Positions 4,003 to 14,431 of a stretch of 64,000 bases of DNA are shown here, one piece after another; the first letter of the stretch is position 1, and each line of letters starts with the position of its first letter. Below the pieces are notes generated by a model. The model did not search any database and had not been told where the DNA came from. It saw nothing but the letters and a program-made list of their open reading frames with translations. This DNA is from Methanosarcina barkeri str. Wiesmoor. Lineage in GTDB: Archaea > Halobacteriota > Methanosarcinia > Methanosarcinales > Methanosarcinaceae. Position numbers and translations under genes: made by a program. Where the stretch lies: NCBI RefSeq assembly GCF_000969985.1, contig NZ_CP009526.1:4278001-4342000 (forward strand), written 5' to 3'.

Positions 4003-4314
4003 TTATCCAGTTATATGATTTAAGTATAAAATTCGCATTTCAAGAGGTGTGGAATCTTTGCTTGATTGTTCGCCAAGCACTTCCATTGTAGCAAGCCCGC
4101 TATATGCCATTTTTGTAAGGGCAAGCATTATGAAATTGAATTCAGGTACTAGCTCCCTATATATTTGAACAGGTTTTTCTTCTGGGGACTTGGAGGGAAC
4201 ACCTGTAAAATAAGCTTTTTTTGCATAAAAATAGTTGTCATGCTTGAGTTCAGTCAAGGGGACAAAGACTGTGCCAAGCTGCTTATCTTCCCAGACTTCA
4301 GTCTGCAGTTGCAT
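4003..4314 (-). pseudogene. internal fragment of a DUF3160 gene
   Basis: The 103 residues align with the middle of the large DUF3160 protein encoded at 10867-13164. Shared runs include QTE-WEDKQL, TGVP, EEKPVQ, VPEF and LALTKMA. Both ends of the family are missing, and the last 15 residues diverge. This is therefore a truncated relic left by duplication of the 4.3-10.7 kb units rather than a working gene. Its apparent start codon falls at the point where similarity begins, overlapping the neighbouring membrane protein gene by 17 bases. Confidence 0.75.
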
Positions 4315-4747
4315 ATAGATTCTTTTTCATTATAACATAAATGAAAATTATTATAATGTATCCACCGGCTATATTGAGAGAATAAGGGATAGTAATTTTA
4401 GATAAGAAAGTAATTATTGCTATTAAGAGCCACAGAATAAAGCCTATTAATGAGCTTTTCATACCGACGATGTCACTATTTTTTTCAATTCTGTTCATAT
4501 TCTTACTATAAAATAAATAGTGTCCAAAAATCAAAAAAAATAAAATAAGACCTATCCCAAGCCATTGGTCTACTTGACCCCAATATTGAGCCTTGGTTAT
4601 TTCGTTGCCATTTACAACTGTCATTTCTGAAAAAAATGACAGTTTTATATTATATATAAATATGAGCCAAGAATAAAATAATACAACTCCAAATAAAACT
4701 CCGGCTACTTCCTGAGTTTTATTTGAAATCGAGGTCGTATCTTTCAT
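4298..4747 (-). CDS. four-helix membrane protein, copy 1 of a duplicated gene
   Basis: This 149-residue protein has about four membrane segments (near residues 16-36, 63-82, 97-117 and 124-141) and a short soluble loop after the first. The protein at 9426-9878 is almost identical apart from a handful of residues and the C-terminal tail. The upstream non-coding DNA is also duplicated. I do not recognise the family. It follows, on the minus strand, a small secreted-protein gene, an order that is repeated at the second copy. Here the C-terminus runs into the DUF3160 fragment, so the duplication junction lies close to the stop codon. Confidence 0.7.
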   Translation of the reverse strand: MKDTTSISNKTQEVAGVLFGVVLFYSWLIFIYNIKLSFFSEMTVVNGNEITKAQYWGQVDQWLGIGLILFFLIFGHYLFYSKNMNRIEKNSDIVGMKSSLIGFILWLLIAIITFLSKITIPYSLNIAGGYIIIIFIYVIMKKNLYATAD

Positions 4748-4833
4748 ACAATAAAACCTCTCAATAATTCAATTTGAGTCTATATAATTAAATTACATTA
4801 AATGTTTCCAAAGATATGTTATATAAATTGTAA

Positions 4834-4872
4834 AGTTTTTAACTAGAGTTTATAACTAGAGTTTTTAACTAG
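4834..4872. repeat. 13-bp tandem repeat, 3 units, upstream of membrane protein gene
   Basis: Three head-to-tail units of AGTTTTTAACTAG (the middle unit has one change) lie about 90-125 bases upstream of the membrane protein start. The homologous site at 9965-10042 carries six units. The copy-number difference between otherwise near-identical promoter regions marks this as a variable tandem repeat. Confidence 0.85.
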
Positions 4873-4978
4873 ATCATTAACAATTTATGTTTAATTGCTG
4901 TCAGTATTTTCGAGGAGAATAAAGCACCTTGAGACTTTAGAATGGTTTTTTCCTGAAAACCACGATTCAGAATACACT

Positions 4979-5584
4979 TTAAGGTTCCTCTTCCGAAACT
5001 TCTGTAATTGTAGGTTCTGTAGTCCATTCAGGCAATTCATCCACCTTTTCAATCGATTTCACGGTCTCATTTGGCGTGTCAATAGTTATCATATAAAATT
5101 CTCCACCGGTCATTTGCGAATAAGTGGATATTACGGTCCCGTTCAGGTAATCAGCTTCTCTACAGAGCTTTTCCTCGGAAACATCCGGTCCAAGGTTTTT
5201 TAATGTACCGTTTTGCAGCTCAACAGTTACTTCGTGAATATACCAGCCGTTAATCCGGATATATACTATAGATTTCCCTGTTTCATTGAAGATGGCACCT
5301 GTGCCTGAATAGTTTCCTTTTGTCAGGTTTTGGAAATCGCTATCATTCTCATAGATTTCATGTAATACTTGTGAAGCAGGTTTCCTGTCAATTCCTCCAA
5401 AGTCATCAGAGTCATTCATACCCAGGGGCAAATCGCCGGATTCATAGAGGGATAAAAGAAAAATTGCCGAGAATAAACCGATAATTATCAGCGAAAACCA
5501 TTTACTTCCATCCAAGATTATTCCTCTTTGACATTTGCTTTTAACATTCTGTACCTTACTTTTCAAGTTCTGTACACCTGACAT
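4979..5584 (-). CDS. small membrane-anchored extracellular protein, paralogue A
   Basis: This 201-residue protein has a basic N-terminus, one hydrophobic anchor (about residues 29-47) and an extracellular domain rich in Asn-x-Ser/Thr sites. It belongs to a local family with the proteins at 7734-8240 and 10149-10736. All share the block INGWYIHEVTVELQNGTLKN, a DVSEEKLC segment and the C-terminal GGEFYMITIDTPNETVKSIE. I do not recognise a named domain. The single anchor and N-glycosylation-like sites suggest a cell-surface protein. Near identity of the C-terminal halves at DNA level indicates recent duplication or gene conversion. Confidence 0.72.
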   Translation of the reverse strand: MSGVQNLKSKVQNVKSKCQRGIILDGSKWFSLIIIGLFSAIFLLSLYESGDLPLGMNDSDDFGGIDRKPASQVLHEIYENDSDFQNLTKGNYSGTGAIFNETGKSIVYIRINGWYIHEVTVELQNGTLKNLGPDVSEEKLCREADYLNGTVISTYSQMTGGEFYMITIDTPNETVKSIEKVDELPEWTTEPTITEVSEEEP

Positions 5585-5904
5585 ATTATTGCTTTTTCTA
5601 ATTCGTACAATGAATAGGATCCAAAAATGTACTTTTTGGAGAAGTTTGTTCGAGTATATATTTCAAGGGAGACAAGACCAAGTAAGCCTTAAGAATTTTC
5701 AAAGTTAGCACAGCCATACCTTTGATACAATAGTGTTAAAAACAGACTCAATTTATTTAAATTTCAACACTATTTTGTGACTATAACTATTATCAGTAGC
5801 TTTTGAAGCGAAATGAAAAAGGTGCCTGTAAAACTTTACAACTTGTCACATGAAAATCGGTTTCAAGCGTCATTATGTACACTTCTTTTCGATCAGTCAC
5901 TATA

Positions 5905-6100
5905 CGTGCTATCGATTCTCCAGTCTCATTGAAGATTCCACCTGCATAGGTGTAGTCCTTACTACAGGACTTTGAAAATTGATATTATTCACATATATTT
6001 CTTAGTATTTCGATCCGGGTTCTCTTTTGACCCCACAATTATTAGCAGAAAGATCATTAGAGCGATTATTACTTTATAAAAGAAAAATAACGACAACTTT
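5905..6100 (-). pseudogene. decayed remnant of the small surface-protein family
   Basis: On the minus strand this stretch aligns, with frameshifts and stops, to the N-terminal half of the proteins at 4979-5584 and 7734-8240. The recognisable part covers the segment ending in IFNETGES and the residues just after the membrane anchor. No open frame remains. The surrounding DNA at 5640-5760 and 6140-6260 also shows similarity to itself, and 6255-6345 resembles the promoter region at 4795-4890. The interval 5585-6493 is therefore a worn-down duplicate unit with no intact gene. Confidence 0.6.
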
Positions 6101-6493
6101 TCTATTTCGTAACATTATATAGCACACCTCTTTGTTTAGTCATCCCGAGAGGCAGAATCAGGCAAGCCTTAAATAACCGCAAAACTAACACTAGCCATGC
6201 CTCCGGGCACAATGGAGTTCAAATCTACTCTGGAAGGTTCTTTTGAACTTCATTAAATATATTCAAAAACATGCTATATAAAGTGTAAAGTTTTTAACCA
6301 AATCATTAAACAATAAACGCTGCATTTACGATTACTTTTATCAATTGTAACACTTTATGTGAGAAATTACATGATGATTTTGACAGGCTGATTGTAACTC
6401 CCAAATGTCGCCAGTACTTTTTTTTACAACAAAAAAGAATGTGAAGTCTGTAACTTCACCTTTTATTTTATTCGTTCTGAAATTTCTCGGATA

Positions 6494-7693
6494 TCAGGAG
6501 AAGGATTCGGAAATATTAAGCAGCTCCCCCTTATCAAGAGAAGAAATAATAGTAATTTCGAATTCCCCATCTTGCCAGGTCAGAGCTTTCATATTTCCTC
6601 CAAATACCGAAGAAATCGTACCGGACTTGTTATTGACCAGAACAGGCTCTCCTTCACTTTCAAGATCCTGAGTTGCAGGCAAACTCTTTTCAGAAATGCT
6701 TTCTACAATACGTATTTCGTCGTCCCCTTTTGTATATACCATAGTGATCTTTTCTTGAGGGTATCCTGCAAAAATACCGAAGCTGTTATGGAGAAAAGTG
6801 GAATAAGGCGTATCGACACCGGAAGATACCGTTGAATAATTAAATTCATATCCTTCCGGGAGATATTCAGGGATAAGTATTTCAAAATCAGTAAGTTGTT
6901 TTGCTTCTTCAAGCGTTATTTTTTCAGGCTCATTTTTTAAGTCTTCCAGCTCCAATACCTTTACCTGCGCCCCATCCGGAATTTTAAACTCAAAATCAGA
7001 ATATGGAATTCCCGTATTCAATCTCAGGTCCCGAATTTCCATTTCAAGATAAACATTTCCTTTGCTGTCATATAGTTCATACCCGAGAAGCATCCAGTTT
7101 TCGCTGTCGACCCATATTTTTGGTTTCCATTGAAGTGATTCATTATTCTCAGAAGGTGTGAGCTCAAGCAAATATACGCTTTCTCCATCTATTTTTTCGG
7201 TTCCAAGGAGGAAAGGTGACCCCCCACTAAGGACGAAACCGTTCAAAAAACCAGCATAAACATCAGGCTCAAAAAGTTTCAAACCGTCAAAATCATCTGA
7301 AGTTTCCGCTTTGAAAACAATCTCGGATTCGGAACTGTAAATCCATTGGAAATCTCCGTCAGAGACCATAATTATTTTCGTATCATTATCCGGACCTAAA
7401 AGAATCATTTTCATTAAATCAGGCTTTTTCCAGACAACTTCATATATTTCCGGATTCTGCTCTCTTGAACTTGAATTTACATACATTGTAAAAGAATAAT
7501 CTTCAAGACTATCCATTTTCATCTGCATGTTGGATACGATTTCTTCACCGTCGGGCCGTATGTCAGATGTAACCCCTTCAACATCGGATTTCTCCCCGCA
7601 ACCTGAAATAAAAATGGATAGGGATGCCAGGAACAGAATGAGCAGTAAATGTCTTTTGGATTTATTCTTCATATAGGGTTCTCCCCCGATCAT
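6494..7693 (-). CDS. lipoprotein with LolA-like and DUF4367-like domains
   Basis: This 399-residue secreted protein has an N-terminal signal ending in a lipobox (IFISGC, cysteine near residue 32), so it is probably lipid-anchored outside the membrane. Residues of about 45-245 resemble the LolA/MucB-type lipid-binding beta fold found in archaeal outer-membrane-lipoprotein-sorting-like proteins (VNSSSREQNPEIYEVVWKKP and WVDSENWMLLGYELYD are typical). The C-terminal 140 residues, beginning at the ILIPEYLPEGYEF motif, look like a DUF4367 domain. The start may be the internal Met seven residues later (MKNKSKRHLL), which gives a better signal peptide. It is flanked by members of the small surface-protein family and is probably part of the same envelope locus. 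Confidence 0.75.
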   Translation of the reverse strand: MIGGEPYMKNKSKRHLLLILFLASLSIFISGCGEKSDVEGVTSDIRPDGEEIVSNMQMKMDSLEDYSFTMYVNSSSREQNPEIYEVVWKKPDLMKMILLGPDNDTKIIMVSDGDFQWIYSSESEIVFKAETSDDFDGLKLFEPDVYAGFLNGFVLSGGSPFLLGTEKIDGESVYLLELTPSENNESLQWKPKIWVDSENWMLLGYELYDSKGNVYLEMEIRDLRLNTGIPYSDFEFKIPDGAQVKVLELEDLKNEPEKITLEEAKQLTDFEILIPEYLPEGYEFNYSTVSSGVDTPYSTFLHNSFGIFAGYPQEKITMVYTKGDDEIRIVESISEKSLPATQDLESEGEPVLVNNKSGTISSVFGGNMKALTWQDGEFEITIISSLDKGELLNISESFS

Positions 7694-7733
7694 TTTATTA
7701 TTAAACGAATTTGCATGATCATGTCAAGTCATG

Positions 7734-8240
7734 TCAGGGAATAAGCTCAGATCCCACTACTTCGGCTTCTGCAGTCCATTCAGGCAATTCATCCACCTTT
7801 TCAATCGATTTCACGGTCTCATTTGGCGTGTCAATAGTTATCATATAAAATTCTCCACCGGTCATTTGTGAATAAGTGGATATTACGGTCCCGTTCAGGT
7901 AATCAGCTTCTTTACAGAGCTTTTCCTCGGAAACATCCGGTCCAAGGTTTTTTAATGTACCGTTTTGCAGCTCAACAGTTACTTCGTGAATATACCAGCC
8001 GTTAATCCGGATATATGCTACAGATTCCCCTGTTTCATTGAAAATTCCAACTTCATATGTATAGTTTCCTTTTGTCAGGTTTTGAAAATCACTATCACTC
8101 ACGTATATTTTTCTTAATATTTCCGATCCGGGTTCTCTGTTAATCCCTCCATAATTATCAACGTCATTCATACCCAGGGGCAAATTTCCGGATCCGTAGA
8201 GAGATAAAAGAATAATTGCCGAAAGAAAACCAAAAATCAC
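7734..8240 (-). CDS. small membrane-anchored extracellular protein, paralogue B, start uncertain
   Basis: This 168-residue member of the local family has an extracellular domain nearly identical to paralogue A over its C-terminal 100 residues. The start shown is a GTG inside the membrane anchor. The reading frame continues upstream through GGIILEEGKWFLL, homologous to the N-terminus of the paralogues, to a TAA at about 8313 without an ATG. Either a non-standard start is used upstream, or this copy has lost its start and is degenerating. The C-terminal tail (AEAEVVGSELIP) differs from that of the paralogues. Confidence 0.6.
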   Translation of the reverse strand: MIFGFLSAIILLSLYGSGNLPLGMNDVDNYGGINREPGSEILRKIYVSDSDFQNLTKGNYTYEVGIFNETGESVAYIRINGWYIHEVTVELQNGTLKNLGPDVSEEKLCKEADYLNGTVISTYSQMTGGEFYMITIDTPNETVKSIEKVDELPEWTAEAEVVGSELIP

Positions 8241-8937
8241 CAGCAGAAACCATTTACCTTCTTCCAGAATTATTCCTCCCTGACCATCAGTATCTATAAA
8301 TATTCTGTATCTTATTTAGAATTTTAGAGTTATAGAGCTCTTGATGTTACTGCTTTTTTCCGGGCTACGCAAGCACATCCATGAAAGAAAAAGGCTCTTC
8401 GCTGTTTCGAGTGGGTAACTTACATTCATCTATTGAAATGTCGAAGTAATACATCTAACCCACTTTCCGCAGTAAATTTACGTAAATTCATATTTTTACT
8501 GCTATCGATTTTCAATCAAATGTAGATTTATTGGACTTTTATGCAGTAGGTAAAAGCAACGATGTGGTGTATTTAGAGACCAAAAATGATATCATTCAAT
8601 TTTCACCAAATACCATTAAAAATTCAAATTATTTACTCTGTTCCAAAAACGCTATCAAGAAAAATATTGATTTTCAAAAAAATACTGCGGAATGTAGGAT
8701 ATAATAAAATATATGCAATTAACCATATTTTTTGGGTCGACTTTTTTTGAAAATACCTGATTCCTGAAAAAAAGCCCTATGGATAACACGACAAGGCTTG
8801 ACAGACAAAAAAGAAATATGTTGCATTTGAAATCCCTCTATGACCGCGGGTTCAAAAGCTTATACGGTTTTTCTGTTATGCAGATTTGAGAGTTAGAATC
8901 ATTCTCTTCATCTCTATCTATAGTTATACTTTAAAAA
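8241..8937. other. gene-free interval
   Basis: About 700 AT-rich bases separate two surface-protein units. Apart from the N-terminal extension of paralogue B up to about 8310, I see no open frame, tRNA or convincing repeat. The stretch may hold remnants of a mobile element, but I cannot identify one. Confidence 0.5.
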
Positions 8938-9420
8938 TCAATTGATTCCACTTAAGAAAACTGGAATCCATAGAATTCCAAAAAAAATGGAAATAATAAG
9001 GTACTTAAATTCTCTCTTTGATGAAAAATACCCGGCTAAACCACCAAGAGTCGCCAAACTCACAGCATAGACAAGAACAGTCAAAAACCGGCTGATATTG
9101 AGACCGTCCTTATAGATAAGATTTCCAAAAAATAAATTTCCAAAAAACAAAAGAATGAAAATAGGAACTGTTCCAACTATAATTGCCCCTACCTTATCTT
9201 TTACAATCCACCCATAAATAATCGGAGTTACAGGGAAGATAAGCAGATTAATAACTGTCTCAAATCTCTCACCATAAGTTCCAAATATCCTGTAAAGATC
9301 TATAGTTTCAAGACCAGCTACGATGCAAACAACTGCAAAAGAGATTATCAAAGGATGAAATAATTTCTTTTGGAAATTAATGTTTAAGCCCCCTAAAAAT
9401 AGGAAAGATGATTTTTTCAC
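8938..9420 (-). CDS. multi-pass membrane protein, unknown function
   Basis: This 160-residue protein is almost entirely hydrophobic, with about five membrane segments and a short basic N-terminus. No catalytic or transport motif is recognisable. It starts five bases after the end of the membrane protein at 9426-9878 and probably shares its transcript. No equivalent is present at the first copy of the duplicated unit, where the DUF3160 fragment occupies this position. Confidence 0.65.
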   Translation of the reverse strand: MKKSSFLFLGGLNINFQKKLFHPLIISFAVVCIVAGLETIDLYRIFGTYGERFETVINLLIFPVTPIIYGWIVKDKVGAIIVGTVPIFILLFFGNLFFGNLIYKDGLNISRFLTVLVYAVSLATLGGLAGYFSSKREFKYLIISIFFGILWIPVFLSGIN

Positions 9421-9425
9421 ATTAG

Positions 9426-9878
9426 TTATTGGTTAAGTGAGGAATATAGATTCTTTCTCATTAAAATATAAATGGAAATTATTATAATGTATCCACCGGC
9501 TATATTGAGAGAATAAGGGATAGTAATTTTAGATAAGAAAGTAATTATTGTTATAAAGAGCCACAGAATATAGCCTATTAATGAGCTTTTCATACCGACG
9601 ATGTCACTATTTTTTTCAATTCTGTTCATATTCTTACTATAAAATAAATAGTGTCCAAAAATCAAAAAAAATAAAATAAGACCTATCCCAAGCCATTGGT
9701 CTACTTGACCCCAATATTGAGCCTTGGTTATTTCGTTGCCATTTACAACTGTCATTTCTGAAAAAAATGACAGTTTTATATTATATATAAATATGAGCCA
9801 AGAATAAAATAATACAACTCCAAATAAAACTCCGGCTACTTCCTGAGTTTTATTTGAAATCGAGGTCGTATCTTTCAT
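9426..9878 (-). CDS. four-helix membrane protein, copy 2 of a duplicated gene
   Basis: This 150-residue protein is nearly identical to the one at 4298-4747; differences cluster in the last 50 residues. It has about four membrane segments and no recognised motif. The upstream 170 bases are also conserved with the first copy except for the number of 13-bp repeats. Strong conservation of promoter and coding DNA points to a recent duplication, possibly maintained by gene conversion. Confidence 0.7.
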   Translation of the reverse strand: MKDTTSISNKTQEVAGVLFGVVLFYSWLIFIYNIKLSFFSEMTVVNGNEITKAQYWGQVDQWLGIGLILFFLIFGHYLFYSKNMNRIEKNSDIVGMKSSLIGYILWLFITIITFLSKITIPYSLNIAGGYIIIISIYILMRKNLYSSLNQ

Positions 9879-9964
9879 ACAATAAAACCTCTCAATAATT
9901 CAATTTGAGTCTATATAATTAAATTACATTAAATGTTTCCAAAGATATGTTATATAAATTGTAA

Positions 9965-10042
9965 AGTTTTTAACTAGAGTTTTTAACTAGAGTTTTTAAC
10001 TGGAGTTTTTAACTAGAGTTTTTAACTAGAGTTTTTAACTAG
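9965..10042. repeat. 13-bp tandem repeat, 6 units
   Basis: Six head-to-tail units of AGTTTTTAACTAG (the third reads AGTTTTTAACTGG) lie upstream of the membrane protein gene. The homologous repeat at 4834-4872 has three. Because the units lie between two duplicated genes, changes in number could alter promoter spacing. Confidence 0.9.
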
Positions 10043-10148
10043 ATCATTAACAATTTATGTTTAATTGCTGTCAGTATTTTCGAGGAGAATAAAGCACCTT
10101 GAGACTTTATAATGGTTTTTTCCTGAAAACCACGATTCAGAATACACT

Positions 10149-10736
10149 TTAAGGTTCCTCTTCCGAAACTTCTGTAATTGTAGTTTCTGTAGTCCATTCA
10201 GGCAATTCATCCACCTTTTCAATCGATTTCACGGTCTCATTTGGCGTGTCAATAGTTATCATGTAGAATTCTCCACCTGTCATTTGCGAATGAATGGATA
10301 TTACGGACCCATTCAGGGAATCAGCTTCTCTACAGAGCTTTTCCTCGGAAACATCCGGTCCAAGGTTTTTTAATGTACCGTTTTGCAGCTCAACAGTTAC
10401 TTCGTGAATATACCAGCCGTTAATCTGGATATATGCTACAGATTCCCCTGTTTCATTGAAAATTCCACCTGGGCCTGAATAGTTCCCTTTTGTTAAGTTT
10501 TGAAAATCGCTATCATTTTCATATATTCTCTGCATTGTTACTGCGGGGTCTAATCTGTCAATTCCTCCAAAGTCATCAGAGTCATTCATACCCAGGGACA
10601 AATCGCCGGATTCATAGAGGGATAAAAGAAAAATTGCCGAGAATAAACCGATAATTATCAGCGAAAACCATTTACTTCCATCCAAGATTATTCCTCTTTG
10701 ACATTTGCTTTTAACATTCTGTACCTTACTTTTCAA
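10149..10736 (-). CDS. small membrane-anchored extracellular protein, paralogue C
   Basis: This 195-residue protein is the closest relative of paralogue A at 4979-5584. It has the same basic N-terminus (SKCQRGIILDGSKWF), one membrane anchor (about residues 23-41) and the shared extracellular domain ending in DELPEWTTE. Variation is concentrated between residues 60 and 85, just outside the membrane. It sits between the DUF3160 gene upstream and the four-helix membrane protein downstream, all on the minus strand. Function is unknown. Confidence 0.72.
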   Translation of the reverse strand: MKSKVQNVKSKCQRGIILDGSKWFSLIIIGLFSAIFLLSLYESGDLSLGMNDSDDFGGIDRLDPAVTMQRIYENDSDFQNLTKGNYSGPGGIFNETGESVAYIQINGWYIHEVTVELQNGTLKNLGPDVSEEKLCREADSLNGSVISIHSQMTGGEFYMITIDTPNETVKSIEKVDELPEWTTETTITEVSEEEP

Positions 10737-10866
10737 GTTTTAGAAATCTGGCACATCACCTATTTTTTCTGAACTACGCAGGTGCGCCCTTAAAACAAAA
10801 AACGGAAAAGATAAGCTATCTAGAATGGCATCTTTTACACGTAGCATCTTTTACACGCAGTATCTT

Positions 10867-13164
10867 TTACACCTTAAAAGACTCACCCCATTCCGGCCTT
10901 TCAGGAGGGTTATTTTTCAGCATATCTCTCCATTCTTCATCTGTCAACCTCTGTCCTGATGGCTGCCAGAACTCATAATAACTCATTACAGGGCCTGCTC
11001 CAAGAACAATCCTACCATCGGGCTGTTTATAAGCTACTATTATCAGGTCCAGTTTTCCGGTTCCTTCTTCCAAAACTCCAGCAGGAGAGGTGTAAACATC
11101 CGCGACCATGACCGATCTCTGGGAATCCTCATCTACGTTCTCAAGCATTGGAGATATATTCTGGCCAAAATTCCTGATGAACTCATACTCTGCATCTGTC
11201 AGCTCTTTGTTTTCAAGCTCTTTTATCGAGATTTCCAGCAACTTTTCAAGGGTGTTTTCAAGAGTTGTGAACTCTTTATCTGATTTTTCGTCAAGTACTT
11301 CCATTTCAGCCAGCCCATTGTGTGCCATTTTTGTAAGGGCAAGCATCCTGGAATAGAATTCGGGAACTGGTTCCACATATCCCTGAACAGGCTTTTCTTC
11401 TGGAATATAGGGTACACCTGTGTAACGAGCCTGTTTTGCATAGAGGATGGTATCATGCCTGAGCTCGGTCCAGGAAGCAAGTGCTGTATTAAGCTGTTTA
11501 TCTTCCCAGGCTTCAGTCTGCATAAATGTAGGATAACCCTCTGGATAACTTATTAGGAGAGGCTTTAAAGCGTACAGTTGAGCCCAGTATAGATTTTTAT
11601 TCCAGTCTTCTTCATCAAAAGCTCTAAATTCATTTTCCAGAGATGTGTGAGCTTTTTTGTATTCTTCATTTTCAGAAATACCCTGATTTTTCAGGTGTTC
11701 TCTGGCTCTTTCAGAACCAAGGAGATCCATAATGTTCAGGGCAGGAGGATGGAGCTTCTGGAGAATATAGGAGTCTGGAGTATATCGCTGACCCATGAAT
11801 CTGAACCCTTTTGTAGCCTCAAGAGTTTTGTTTTCGGTTTCAGAGCCTGCCTGAATTATTTCCCCTGTTCCGCTGTAGATTTTTGGGCTTTCATATTTTT
11901 CAAGTTCAGTTTTCAGTGCTGTAAGACTTTCGTTGTCGAAACTTACTCCGTTTCTATCATTCCCAAAAACAGTATCCAGAGCTTTTGTATATTCATAGGG
12001 CCCGAGGTCATCAGAAAAACCGACATAAAAAGCAGTTACGTTATAGATTCTGTCCCATCTCTCTCGGAGGTTTTTGTCCTTATCACAATGGTCAGAAATC
12101 AAAAAAGCCTGTATAGTCTGGATTCTCGCTTCATTTTCCGGGTCTTCTGTATTAATCATGTCCGGCTTAAGTAGCATACTCATTCTACCATGCCACATCA
12201 TGGCCTTGAAGTATTTCTGAAGTTTTTCAGAGGATGTATAGTGTCCCCGTGGAGTGTACTGAGAGTAATCTTCACTGTACTTGAAAATCGGAGACACTCC
12301 CTCTTTTTGAGCTTCTATCAAAGCGAGTTCAGCCTCTACATCTTCCTGCACATATTTCGGGACTTCAAAGCTATATTCTTCGGAACTTGAAGTCTCTGTA
12401 GACTTGACCTGTATCCGATTTGGATCTGGTTTTTCTTCAAGCAAACTAAGGGCAACCGCAAAGTATGCAACATTTCTTCTTGCAGCTTCCTTTACTTCAT
12501 CAGATGAAGAACTGTTTTCTTTTATCTCGTTATAATCTTCTATGGAAGATTCAAGGAGCATTTTGTCAAGTCTCCAGAGCTCGTCGTAAAACTCATTTTC
12601 TTCGACCCTTTTTAATGTCTCATCAAACTGGACATGGTAAAGGTGGAGGAGAGAATCCGACGTTATGAATATAGGAACGTCAGCCACTTTCAGGTCTCTG
12701 TAAGTTGCATTTACTTGCTCCACTTTAAATTGATTTTTGGTAACTTCATTTTCAATTACAACAAACCCATTTGTGTACAGTAAGTTTCTGCTTTCGTTTG
12801 TTAGGTGAATCTTTTGGATGAAACTATTATAATTCGTAATTTCGGAAGCCTGTAGAGGTAGAGAATAGATGGGAACTACAGCCTCGAACTACAGATTTTC
12901 TTTACTGTAATATTTGGAAAAGGAGCTTTGTCCTTCAAGTTTAGGGGTATTATTGGTCTTTTCAGAAGAGTTCTCTATAGAAACGTCTTCTTCGGTGGAA
13001 TTAAATGAACTAGTCTGACTGTATGTTTCATTAACTGGATTTGTTTCATTAATTGGACTTGTTTCATTGACTGGCTCACTGCTACTGTCAATGCAACCTG
13101 ATCCTAGTATCAATAGTATCGCCAGAAGGCAGACAAATCTCAGTAACTTTATTCTCAAGTACAA
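10867..13164 (-). CDS. DUF3160 family lipoprotein with in-frame UAG codon (possible pyrrolysine)
   Basis: The frame from ATG 13164 to TAA 10867 encodes 765 residues if one UAG (12889-12891, codon 92) is read through. Upstream of it are a signal peptide and lipobox (LILGSGC) and a Ser/Thr/Asn-rich linker ending SKENL. Directly after it the frame continues with FEAVVPIYSLPLQ and LLYTNGFVVI, then the DUF3160 core with PIFITSDSLLHLYH. The conserved start of the domain thus lies beyond the UAG and before the next start-like codon (GTG at 12723), so re-initiation would give a protein lacking secretion signal and domain start. Methanosarcina reads UAG as pyrrolysine. Either this is a pyrrolysine protein, a UAG-tolerant gene, or a nonsense mutant. 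DUF3160 proteins are secreted and of unknown function. Confidence 0.75.
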
Positions 13165-13756
13165 TTCCTCACACTCTGATTTATTGTTTAGCGGAAAAAT
13201 TATAAGAAAAATGAATAGTTTAAATAATTATATAGAGTTGACTCGCTGCTGCAAAGAATTACAATTAACTAGTTGAAAACCAAAATTTATTGAATGAAGA
13301 GAAACATCGTAATTTGAAACTTTGTTAATTATACACTCAAAGAATATTTAAAATTTATTCTATATATTTATTTCTTTTATGAATTTTTGTCAGTTGATTA
13401 AGATTCATCATATCGATCAGCTTTTTACCTAAAATAATGATGTATCAGAGTTTTAGTAAACGTCAATAATTCTATTTACTTACAGTAAATAATCTCAATA
13501 TTTTGCTCTTGACTGAGCAATAAAATTGGCAAAATGATACCGACGTACATGCCCGAAAGAAGATAAAACAACATAGTGTATGTAGAAGAATTAAACAGTA
13601 ACATAAGAAAAAGTCTGTAAAGATGGCGAGAGGAAATGAACAAGGTCGAAAATTAAAATCTCTTATATGAATAATTAGAGACTCTTACATGAATATAAAA
13701 ACTATGAATAATGAAAAATCGAAAAAGTTATTTTTAGTGAATCCTTGTTTTGTTTA
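13165..13756. other. divergent intergenic region
   Basis: About 590 bases lie between the leftward DUF3160 gene and the rightward methyltransferase gene. The DNA is very AT-rich and must hold promoters for both directions. I see no open frame, RNA gene or clear repeat. Confidence 0.5.
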
Positions 13757-14431
13757 ATGTCAAAAGAATATCTAAGTTGGGATAATTTTATTGTGACAAA
13801 AATTCCCTCAAGTGTCAAATTGGACCCTATAATTTATGAGTATATAAAAAAAGATCATTTGATTCTTGATATCGGTTGTGGTTTTGGAAAAGTTTCCCTT
13901 CAACTTGCTTTTCAAGGTTTTTATGTGGAAGGAATAGATATTAATGAAGCTGGAATACTTGCTGCACAGGAAAGTGCAAGAAAACTAAACCTGGATGATA
14001 AAGCACATTTCAGAGTTGGAGATGCTACAGATCTACCATATATAGAAGATAAATTTGACATTGTTATCATGCATGGACTTTTGACCATTATTGTGGATAA
14101 AAGTGATAGAAACAAAATTATACAGGAAGCTTATAGGGTTCTAAAACCAGAAGGGCATTTATATATTGTAGACTTTGGTCAAACATGGCATTCTGATATA
14201 TACAGAGAAAGATATCTGAAAGATTTCCCTCTAACAAAGGAAGAAGGATCTTTTTTAGTTTATAATAAAGATACAGGGGAAAAAGAATACATTGCACATC
14301 ATTATACCGAAAAAGAATTGATTTTTCTTTTAGTAAATAATGGATTCAAAATAGATTCTTTTGAGACTAAAGAATTTGTTTCAAGATCGGGAAATAAAGT
14401 AAATGGGTTTGTTATAATATCAAAAATTTGA
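13757..14431 (+). CDS. class I SAM-dependent methyltransferase
   Basis: This 224-residue Rossmann-fold methyltransferase has motif I ILDIGCGFGKVSLQLA (about residues 40-55), the acidic residue that binds the SAM ribose in VEGIDINEAG, the motif II region FRVGDATDLPY, and motif III RVLKPEGHLYIVDFG. I chose the ATG at 13757 over the TTG four codons earlier because it gives the compact start MSKEYLSWDNF. The substrate cannot be told from sequence; the closest general type is the UbiE/Methyltransf_11 group. It stands alone with AT-rich flanks on both sides. Confidence 0.85.
   Translation: MSKEYLSWDNFIVTKIPSSVKLDPIIYEYIKKDHLILDIGCGFGKVSLQLAFQGFYVEGIDINEAGILAAQESARKLNLDDKAHFRVGDATDLPYIEDKFDIVIMHGLLTIIVDKSDRNKIIQEAYRVLKPEGHLYIVDFGQTWHSDIYRERYLKDFPLTKEEGSFLVYNKDTGEKEYIAHHYTEKELIFLLVNNGFKIDSFETKEFVSRSGNKVNGFVIISKI

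Follow-up and report, generated by a model that had tools for sequence, protein, structure and literature searches.

The window, a stretch of 64,000 nucleotides of the Methanosarcina barkeri str. Wiesmoor genome, carries on its minus strand a DUF3160 lipoprotein gene that is interrupted by a stop codon (Table 1). The frame running from 13164 to 10867 spans 765 codons and is broken by one internal stop only, the TAG at codon 92; translation thus bears out the sequence-only reading, in which the frame was open through a single in-frame UAG and had no other defect. The signal peptide and lipobox have the same layout in the orthologues. They are followed by a linker that is mostly predicted to be disordered (pLDDT <50, residues 17–71) and by the DUF3160 domain, the Pfam match to which lies wholly 3′ of the TAG (E about 1e-223, 745 bits, with a cut-off of 25, over profile positions 2–631 of 632). 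The family-invariant residues are retained, at 29 columns that are invariant across 49 sequences, the protein of the window included. The domain is predicted to be ordered and α-rich, with a C-terminal β-sheet (AlphaFold model, pLDDT 84); searches of the Protein Data Bank, by fold with this model and by sequence, gave no match. The family (PF11369) corresponds to arCOG03316, described as 'secreted enzyme ... duplication in Methanosarcina acetivorans' (PMC4158269). The Wiesmoor copy resembles it in its full-length domain match, its signal peptide with lipobox and its tandem duplication, and differs from the rest of the family by the TAG alone.

The start of the gene is probably the TTG at 13158 rather than the codon at 13164 from which the sequence-only reading had begun the frame. 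The TTG is preferred because GAGG, a probable ribosome-binding site, lies 8 nt upstream of it and because the orthologue in genome G002 (L050) starts at an aligned TTG, ahead of which GTGAGG is kept. Both flanks of the TAG align without a break with intact orthologues, and therefore the locus is one interrupted gene; a chance open frame is ruled out by this unbroken homology. A frame scan confirmed the GTG at 12723, 55 codons after the TAG, as the first possible restart. This codon was considered as the intended start of a second gene and rejected, since its product would lack the signal peptide together with 25 residues at the N-terminal end of the domain, and the orthologues are single genes. 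No Shine-Dalgarno-like sequence was seen ahead of it.

Table 1. Features of the interrupted DUF3160 gene and its neighbours, in positions of the window.
Feature	Position	Strand	Basis
Probable ribosome-binding site, GAGG, 8 nt 5′ of TTG 13158	13167..13170	-	Sequence; G002 orthologue
Signal peptide with lipobox LILGSGC (Cys codon at 13093–13095); TTG 13158 is the probable start	13093..13158	-	Translation
Low-complexity Asn/Ser/Glu-rich linker	12892..13092	-	Translation, structure model
In-frame TAG, codon 92	12889..12891	-	Translation and orthologue alignment
DUF3160 domain (PF11369, residues 123–759), without stops or frameshifts	10888..12798	-	Pfam
GTG, first in-frame ATG/GTG/TTG after the TAG, 55 codons on	12721..12723	-	Frame scan
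TAA, terminator of the full-length frame	10867..10869	-	Translation
Small-protein ORF accompanying the DUF3160 gene, downstream	10149..10736	-	ORF list, self-comparison
Decayed second DUF3160 copy, a fragment about 75% identical to 11256–11522	4038..4307	-	Profile and self-comparison

Downstream of the gene, the region 4038–10767 contains a tandem duplication in which the block 4313–5569 is 93% identical to 9444–10739; the small-protein gene is copied again within this block and, as a third copy, at about 7734–8240 (or about 7767–8317). At the other end, homology to the closest orthologues stops sharply at 13112, 17 codons into the frame, and the G002 gene matches to 13640. The locus upstream of 13112 matches the G002 type only, which suggests that the 5′ end of the gene has been recombined. 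About 1 kb between the DUF3160 gene and aroC, which is absent from the closest orthologous loci, carries a SAM-dependent methyltransferase gene (13693–14368, plus strand; DNA 94% identical to a locus in G001); the gene has the appearance of having been transferred or inserted recently. The noncoding stretch upstream of the DUF3160 gene (13313–13658) is repeated over about 300 nt, at 69–75% identity, across many genomes of Methanosarcina (five times in G009), and may be a repeated leader or the remnant of a mobile element; neither this stretch nor the rest of the 64-kb window gave an Rfam match. In genome G003 (C2:540611, L246), a small membrane-protein gene near DUF3160 has TGA where Wiesmoor has a Trp codon, which reads as another sign of decay in this neighbourhood.

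Codon 92 in the orthologues

The orthologue search covered 31 Methanosarcina genomes, one per species. Relatives of the DUF3160 gene were found in 29 of them, many full length and intact. Among the 18 full-length orthologues that were aligned, codon 92 is CAG (Gln) in 15, CAT in two and CGG in one, and a stop in none, so that the UAG is not conserved between species. The closest orthologue (UBA289, 90% identical) reads GAAAATCTG CAG TTCGAGGCT and Wiesmoor reads GAAAATCTG TAG TTCGAGGCT. The CAG of this neighbour and the sense codon in all 18 indicate that the TAG is one C-to-T transition (CAG to TAG, Gln92 to amber), found in the Wiesmoor genome only. As a single base in one assembly, it might be a sequencing or assembly error over a true CAG; this is improbable, given a chromosome-scale contig, an assembly 99.95% complete, the absence of nearby indels and the fact that CAG-to-TAG transitions are common real mutations.

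The codon lies 5′ of the Pfam domain, between the lipobox and linker part and the domain itself. The corresponding column of the family is variable and hydrophilic (Q, D, S, E, N, G, H or R), with conserved hydrophobic neighbours, and in the structure model residue 92 falls in a confident irregular stretch ahead of the first domain helices; the column pattern and the model together suggest that its side chain is exposed. A PYLIS-like stem-loop is helpful to pyrrolysine insertion, though not required for it. None was found after this UAG, and the 103 nt that begin there fold no better than shuffled sequences (z = -0.28). The lack of a special RNA structure downstream is what would be expected for read-through by competition.

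A selected, functional pyrrolysine, which would make DUF3160 the new class of pyrrolysine protein proposed by the sequence-only reading, would agree with the intact frame, the presence of the pyl machinery and the absence of decay in the domain. The proposal is nevertheless unsupported and very unlikely to be right: the TAG occurs in no orthologue of the other pyl-bearing Methanosarcina species, residue 92 varies within the family and precedes the conserved domain, and a PYLIS-like structure is lacking. The same reading had named codon alignment with relatives as a check, and sense codons in the close relatives as one half of what would speak against the proposal; that half is what the alignment returned. 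Its fallback, a tolerated mutation, is the reading to which the private TAG points.

Constraint on the domain and loss within the family

Changes in the DUF3160 domain, to which this analysis was confined, were polarised with six outgroup orthologues. On the Wiesmoor branch 12 changes are nonsynonymous and 26 synonymous (for 1431 and 401 sites, respectively); the corresponding counts on the sister branch are 28 and 20. These counts indicate that the domain has been constrained for most of the Wiesmoor branch since the split from UBA289, which does not date the TAG. Because the constraint spans the branch since that split and not since the mutation, tolerance and recency are inseparable; from a domain without decay it follows that the mutation is either young or tolerated. 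No signs of a pseudogene (further lesions, relaxed selection) are seen after the TAG, although a very young pseudogene would look alike.

The main rival explanation is a plain loss-of-function allele, in which the TAG ends translation and read-through is negligible or its product unused, which would make the gene a pseudogene of very recent origin. Losing the gene would be unremarkable for this family. A Methanosarcina sp. DH2 paralogue has a TAA at residue 655, and thus a DUF3160 gene can be lost; several frameshifted, broken or fragmentary copies are present in other Methanosarcina genomes, and the window itself holds the decayed second copy. From these cases the family appears to be gained and lost readily. 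The Wiesmoor genome also retains three further intact DUF3160 genes, in addition to one fragment. Moreover, the 5′ end and the upstream region differ from those of the closest orthologues, so the regulation of the gene may already be altered. Against a null allele stand the lack of any further decay over 674 codons and a constraint on the domain at least equal to that on the sister gene. The reporter data also weigh against it, since UAG is an inefficient stop in Methanosarcina: introduced into uidA of M. acetivorans, it was read through at 20–30% without a PYLIS (PMC2933860). On balance a null allele is a real possibility, though on the unlikely side.

Pyrrolysine decoding and probable read-through at codon 92

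The pyl cassette of the Wiesmoor genome is complete and intact, with tRNA-Pyl (cta) at L119:5840–5911 followed by pylS, pylB, pylC and pylD, and the PylS profile score is far above its cut-off; the sequence-only reading was right to take the organism for a Methanosarcina with UAG-decoding machinery. The usual in-frame TAG is present in mtbB- and mttB-type genes (dimethylamine and trimethylamine methyltransferases) elsewhere in the genome, and therefore UAG is read in this organism. TAG is the terminator of 21 of 695 long ORFs in the sampled Wiesmoor DNA, compared with 386 for TAA and 288 for TGA. Pyrrolysine insertion has been described in a review as a competition between Pyl-tRNA and release factor (PMC9499178). 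Some read-through of the UAG in the DUF3160 gene is expected, because the cassette is intact and the usual TAG-interrupted mtbB and mttB genes are present.

The account towards which the evidence leans is that of a neutral amber codon with partial pyrrolysine read-through in competition with termination, as in the Thg1 gene (tRNA-His guanylyltransferase) of M. acetivorans, and it is held with moderate confidence. A single CAG-to-TAG mutation would have arisen in an otherwise intact lipoprotein gene. At codon 92, release factor and Pyl-tRNA would compete, since the cell has tRNA-Pyl(CUA) and PylS. Most ribosomes would stop and leave a fragment of about 89 residues, consisting of the signal peptide and linker, and a minority would insert pyrrolysine and complete the full-length lipoprotein. 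Pyrrolysine would be tolerated at residue 92, without a specific role, because the position is variable, hydrophilic and ahead of the conserved domain. In this scheme the TAG, its confinement to one genome, its unbroken flanks, the pyl genes and the variable nature of the site are shown by the sequences; we infer that the gene is transcribed, how much read-through takes place and that the change is neutral.

In Thg1 a dispensable in-frame UAG is found in M. acetivorans alone (Heinemann et al. 2009, as cited in PMC2933860 and PMC3639795). The two cases have in common a UAG in one species, a sense codon in the relatives, an intact downstream frame, the pyl machinery and a residue that is not expected to matter. 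In the DUF3160 gene the UAG is likewise confined to one lineage and separated from the relatives' sense codon by a single base, and the gene has no other lesion and a constrained downstream frame. The difference is that the DUF3160 case is known from sequence, whereas the pyrrolysine of Thg1 was physically observed and the enzyme shown to be active, according to PMC2933860 and PMC3639795. The methylamine methyltransferases MtmB, MtbB and MttB are also Methanosarcina genes with an in-frame UAG in genomes with a pyl cassette; however, they share their UAG across species and use the residue it encodes in catalysis, while the UAG of DUF3160 occurs in one genome and at a variable position. A regulated variant, in which synthesis of full-length DUF3160 would require a supply of pyrrolysine and surface display would thereby depend on the growth substrate, with the TAG kept for that purpose, is highly improbable.

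Most probably, then, the DUF3160 TAG is a point mutation, recent and harmless, which is partly read as pyrrolysine, and not the mark of a new class of pyrrolysine protein. As such it would be a clean example of a pyrrolysine-decoding archaeon in which a gene that the cell can do without has newly acquired a nonsense codon, and it could act as a natural reporter, at the cell surface, of background UAG read-through.

In-frame TAG codons elsewhere in the genome

A test for an overall excess of TAG interruptions covered 2.0 Mb of Wiesmoor by a coding-potential scan and comparison with 0.8 Mb of G003, and candidates outside Pfam matches were classified by reading their translations. Clean interruptions of genes other than methyltransferases numbered about 4–7 for TAG, three for TGA and two for TAA. 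With a mutational opportunity for TAG of about 0.32–0.39, the excess of TAG in the 2.0-Mb sample is not significant (one-sided P = 0.34 for 5 of 10 and 0.14 for 7 of 12, on small numbers). TAG interruptions are not clearly commoner than those by TGA or TAA, and therefore tolerance is not shown statistically. That TGA and TAA interrupt other genes as often as mutation predicts favours, for the DUF3160 gene, the null allele.

The gene for protein-L-isoaspartate O-methyltransferase (PCMT; G000:C2:4190008–4190760, plus strand; L120:8–760) resembles DUF3160 in being a non-methylamine gene whose frame is intact apart from a single TAG. Its TAG (L120:527–529) lies inside the Pfam domain, and the PF01135 match spans the stop. 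Twelve Methanosarcina genomes have a TAG within one common stretch of 45 residues, where no other type of stop is found, and it is the same codon in all four genomes that were read directly. This in-frame TAG was already predicted for M. barkeri by Chaudhuri and Yeates 2005 (PMC1242214). PCMT shows the pattern of a retained pyrrolysine codon, with TAG across the 12 genomes, and the DUF3160 gene does not; by this comparison PCMT is a much better pyrrolysine candidate. A rule for sorting such genes suggests itself, which separates a TAG conserved across species (PCMT and, in part, a radical SAM gene) from one confined to a single genome (DUF3160).

That radical SAM/SPASM gene (G000:C2:3971414–3972574, plus strand; L188:1414–2574) has its TAG at L188:1675–1677, inside the radical SAM domain. 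Within a shared stretch of 50 residues, five Methanosarcina genomes have a TAG and a further 19 are free of stops, which looks like repeated gain of the TAG or its repeated loss to a sense codon. No earlier report of this TAG was found in a literature search of more general scope. A YVTN/YNCE β-propeller gene (G000:C2:3798740–3800089, plus strand; L179:8740–10089) carries an in-frame TAG at L179:9139–9141 within a repeat unit, at a position occupied by Trp, Tyr or Glu in related repeats.
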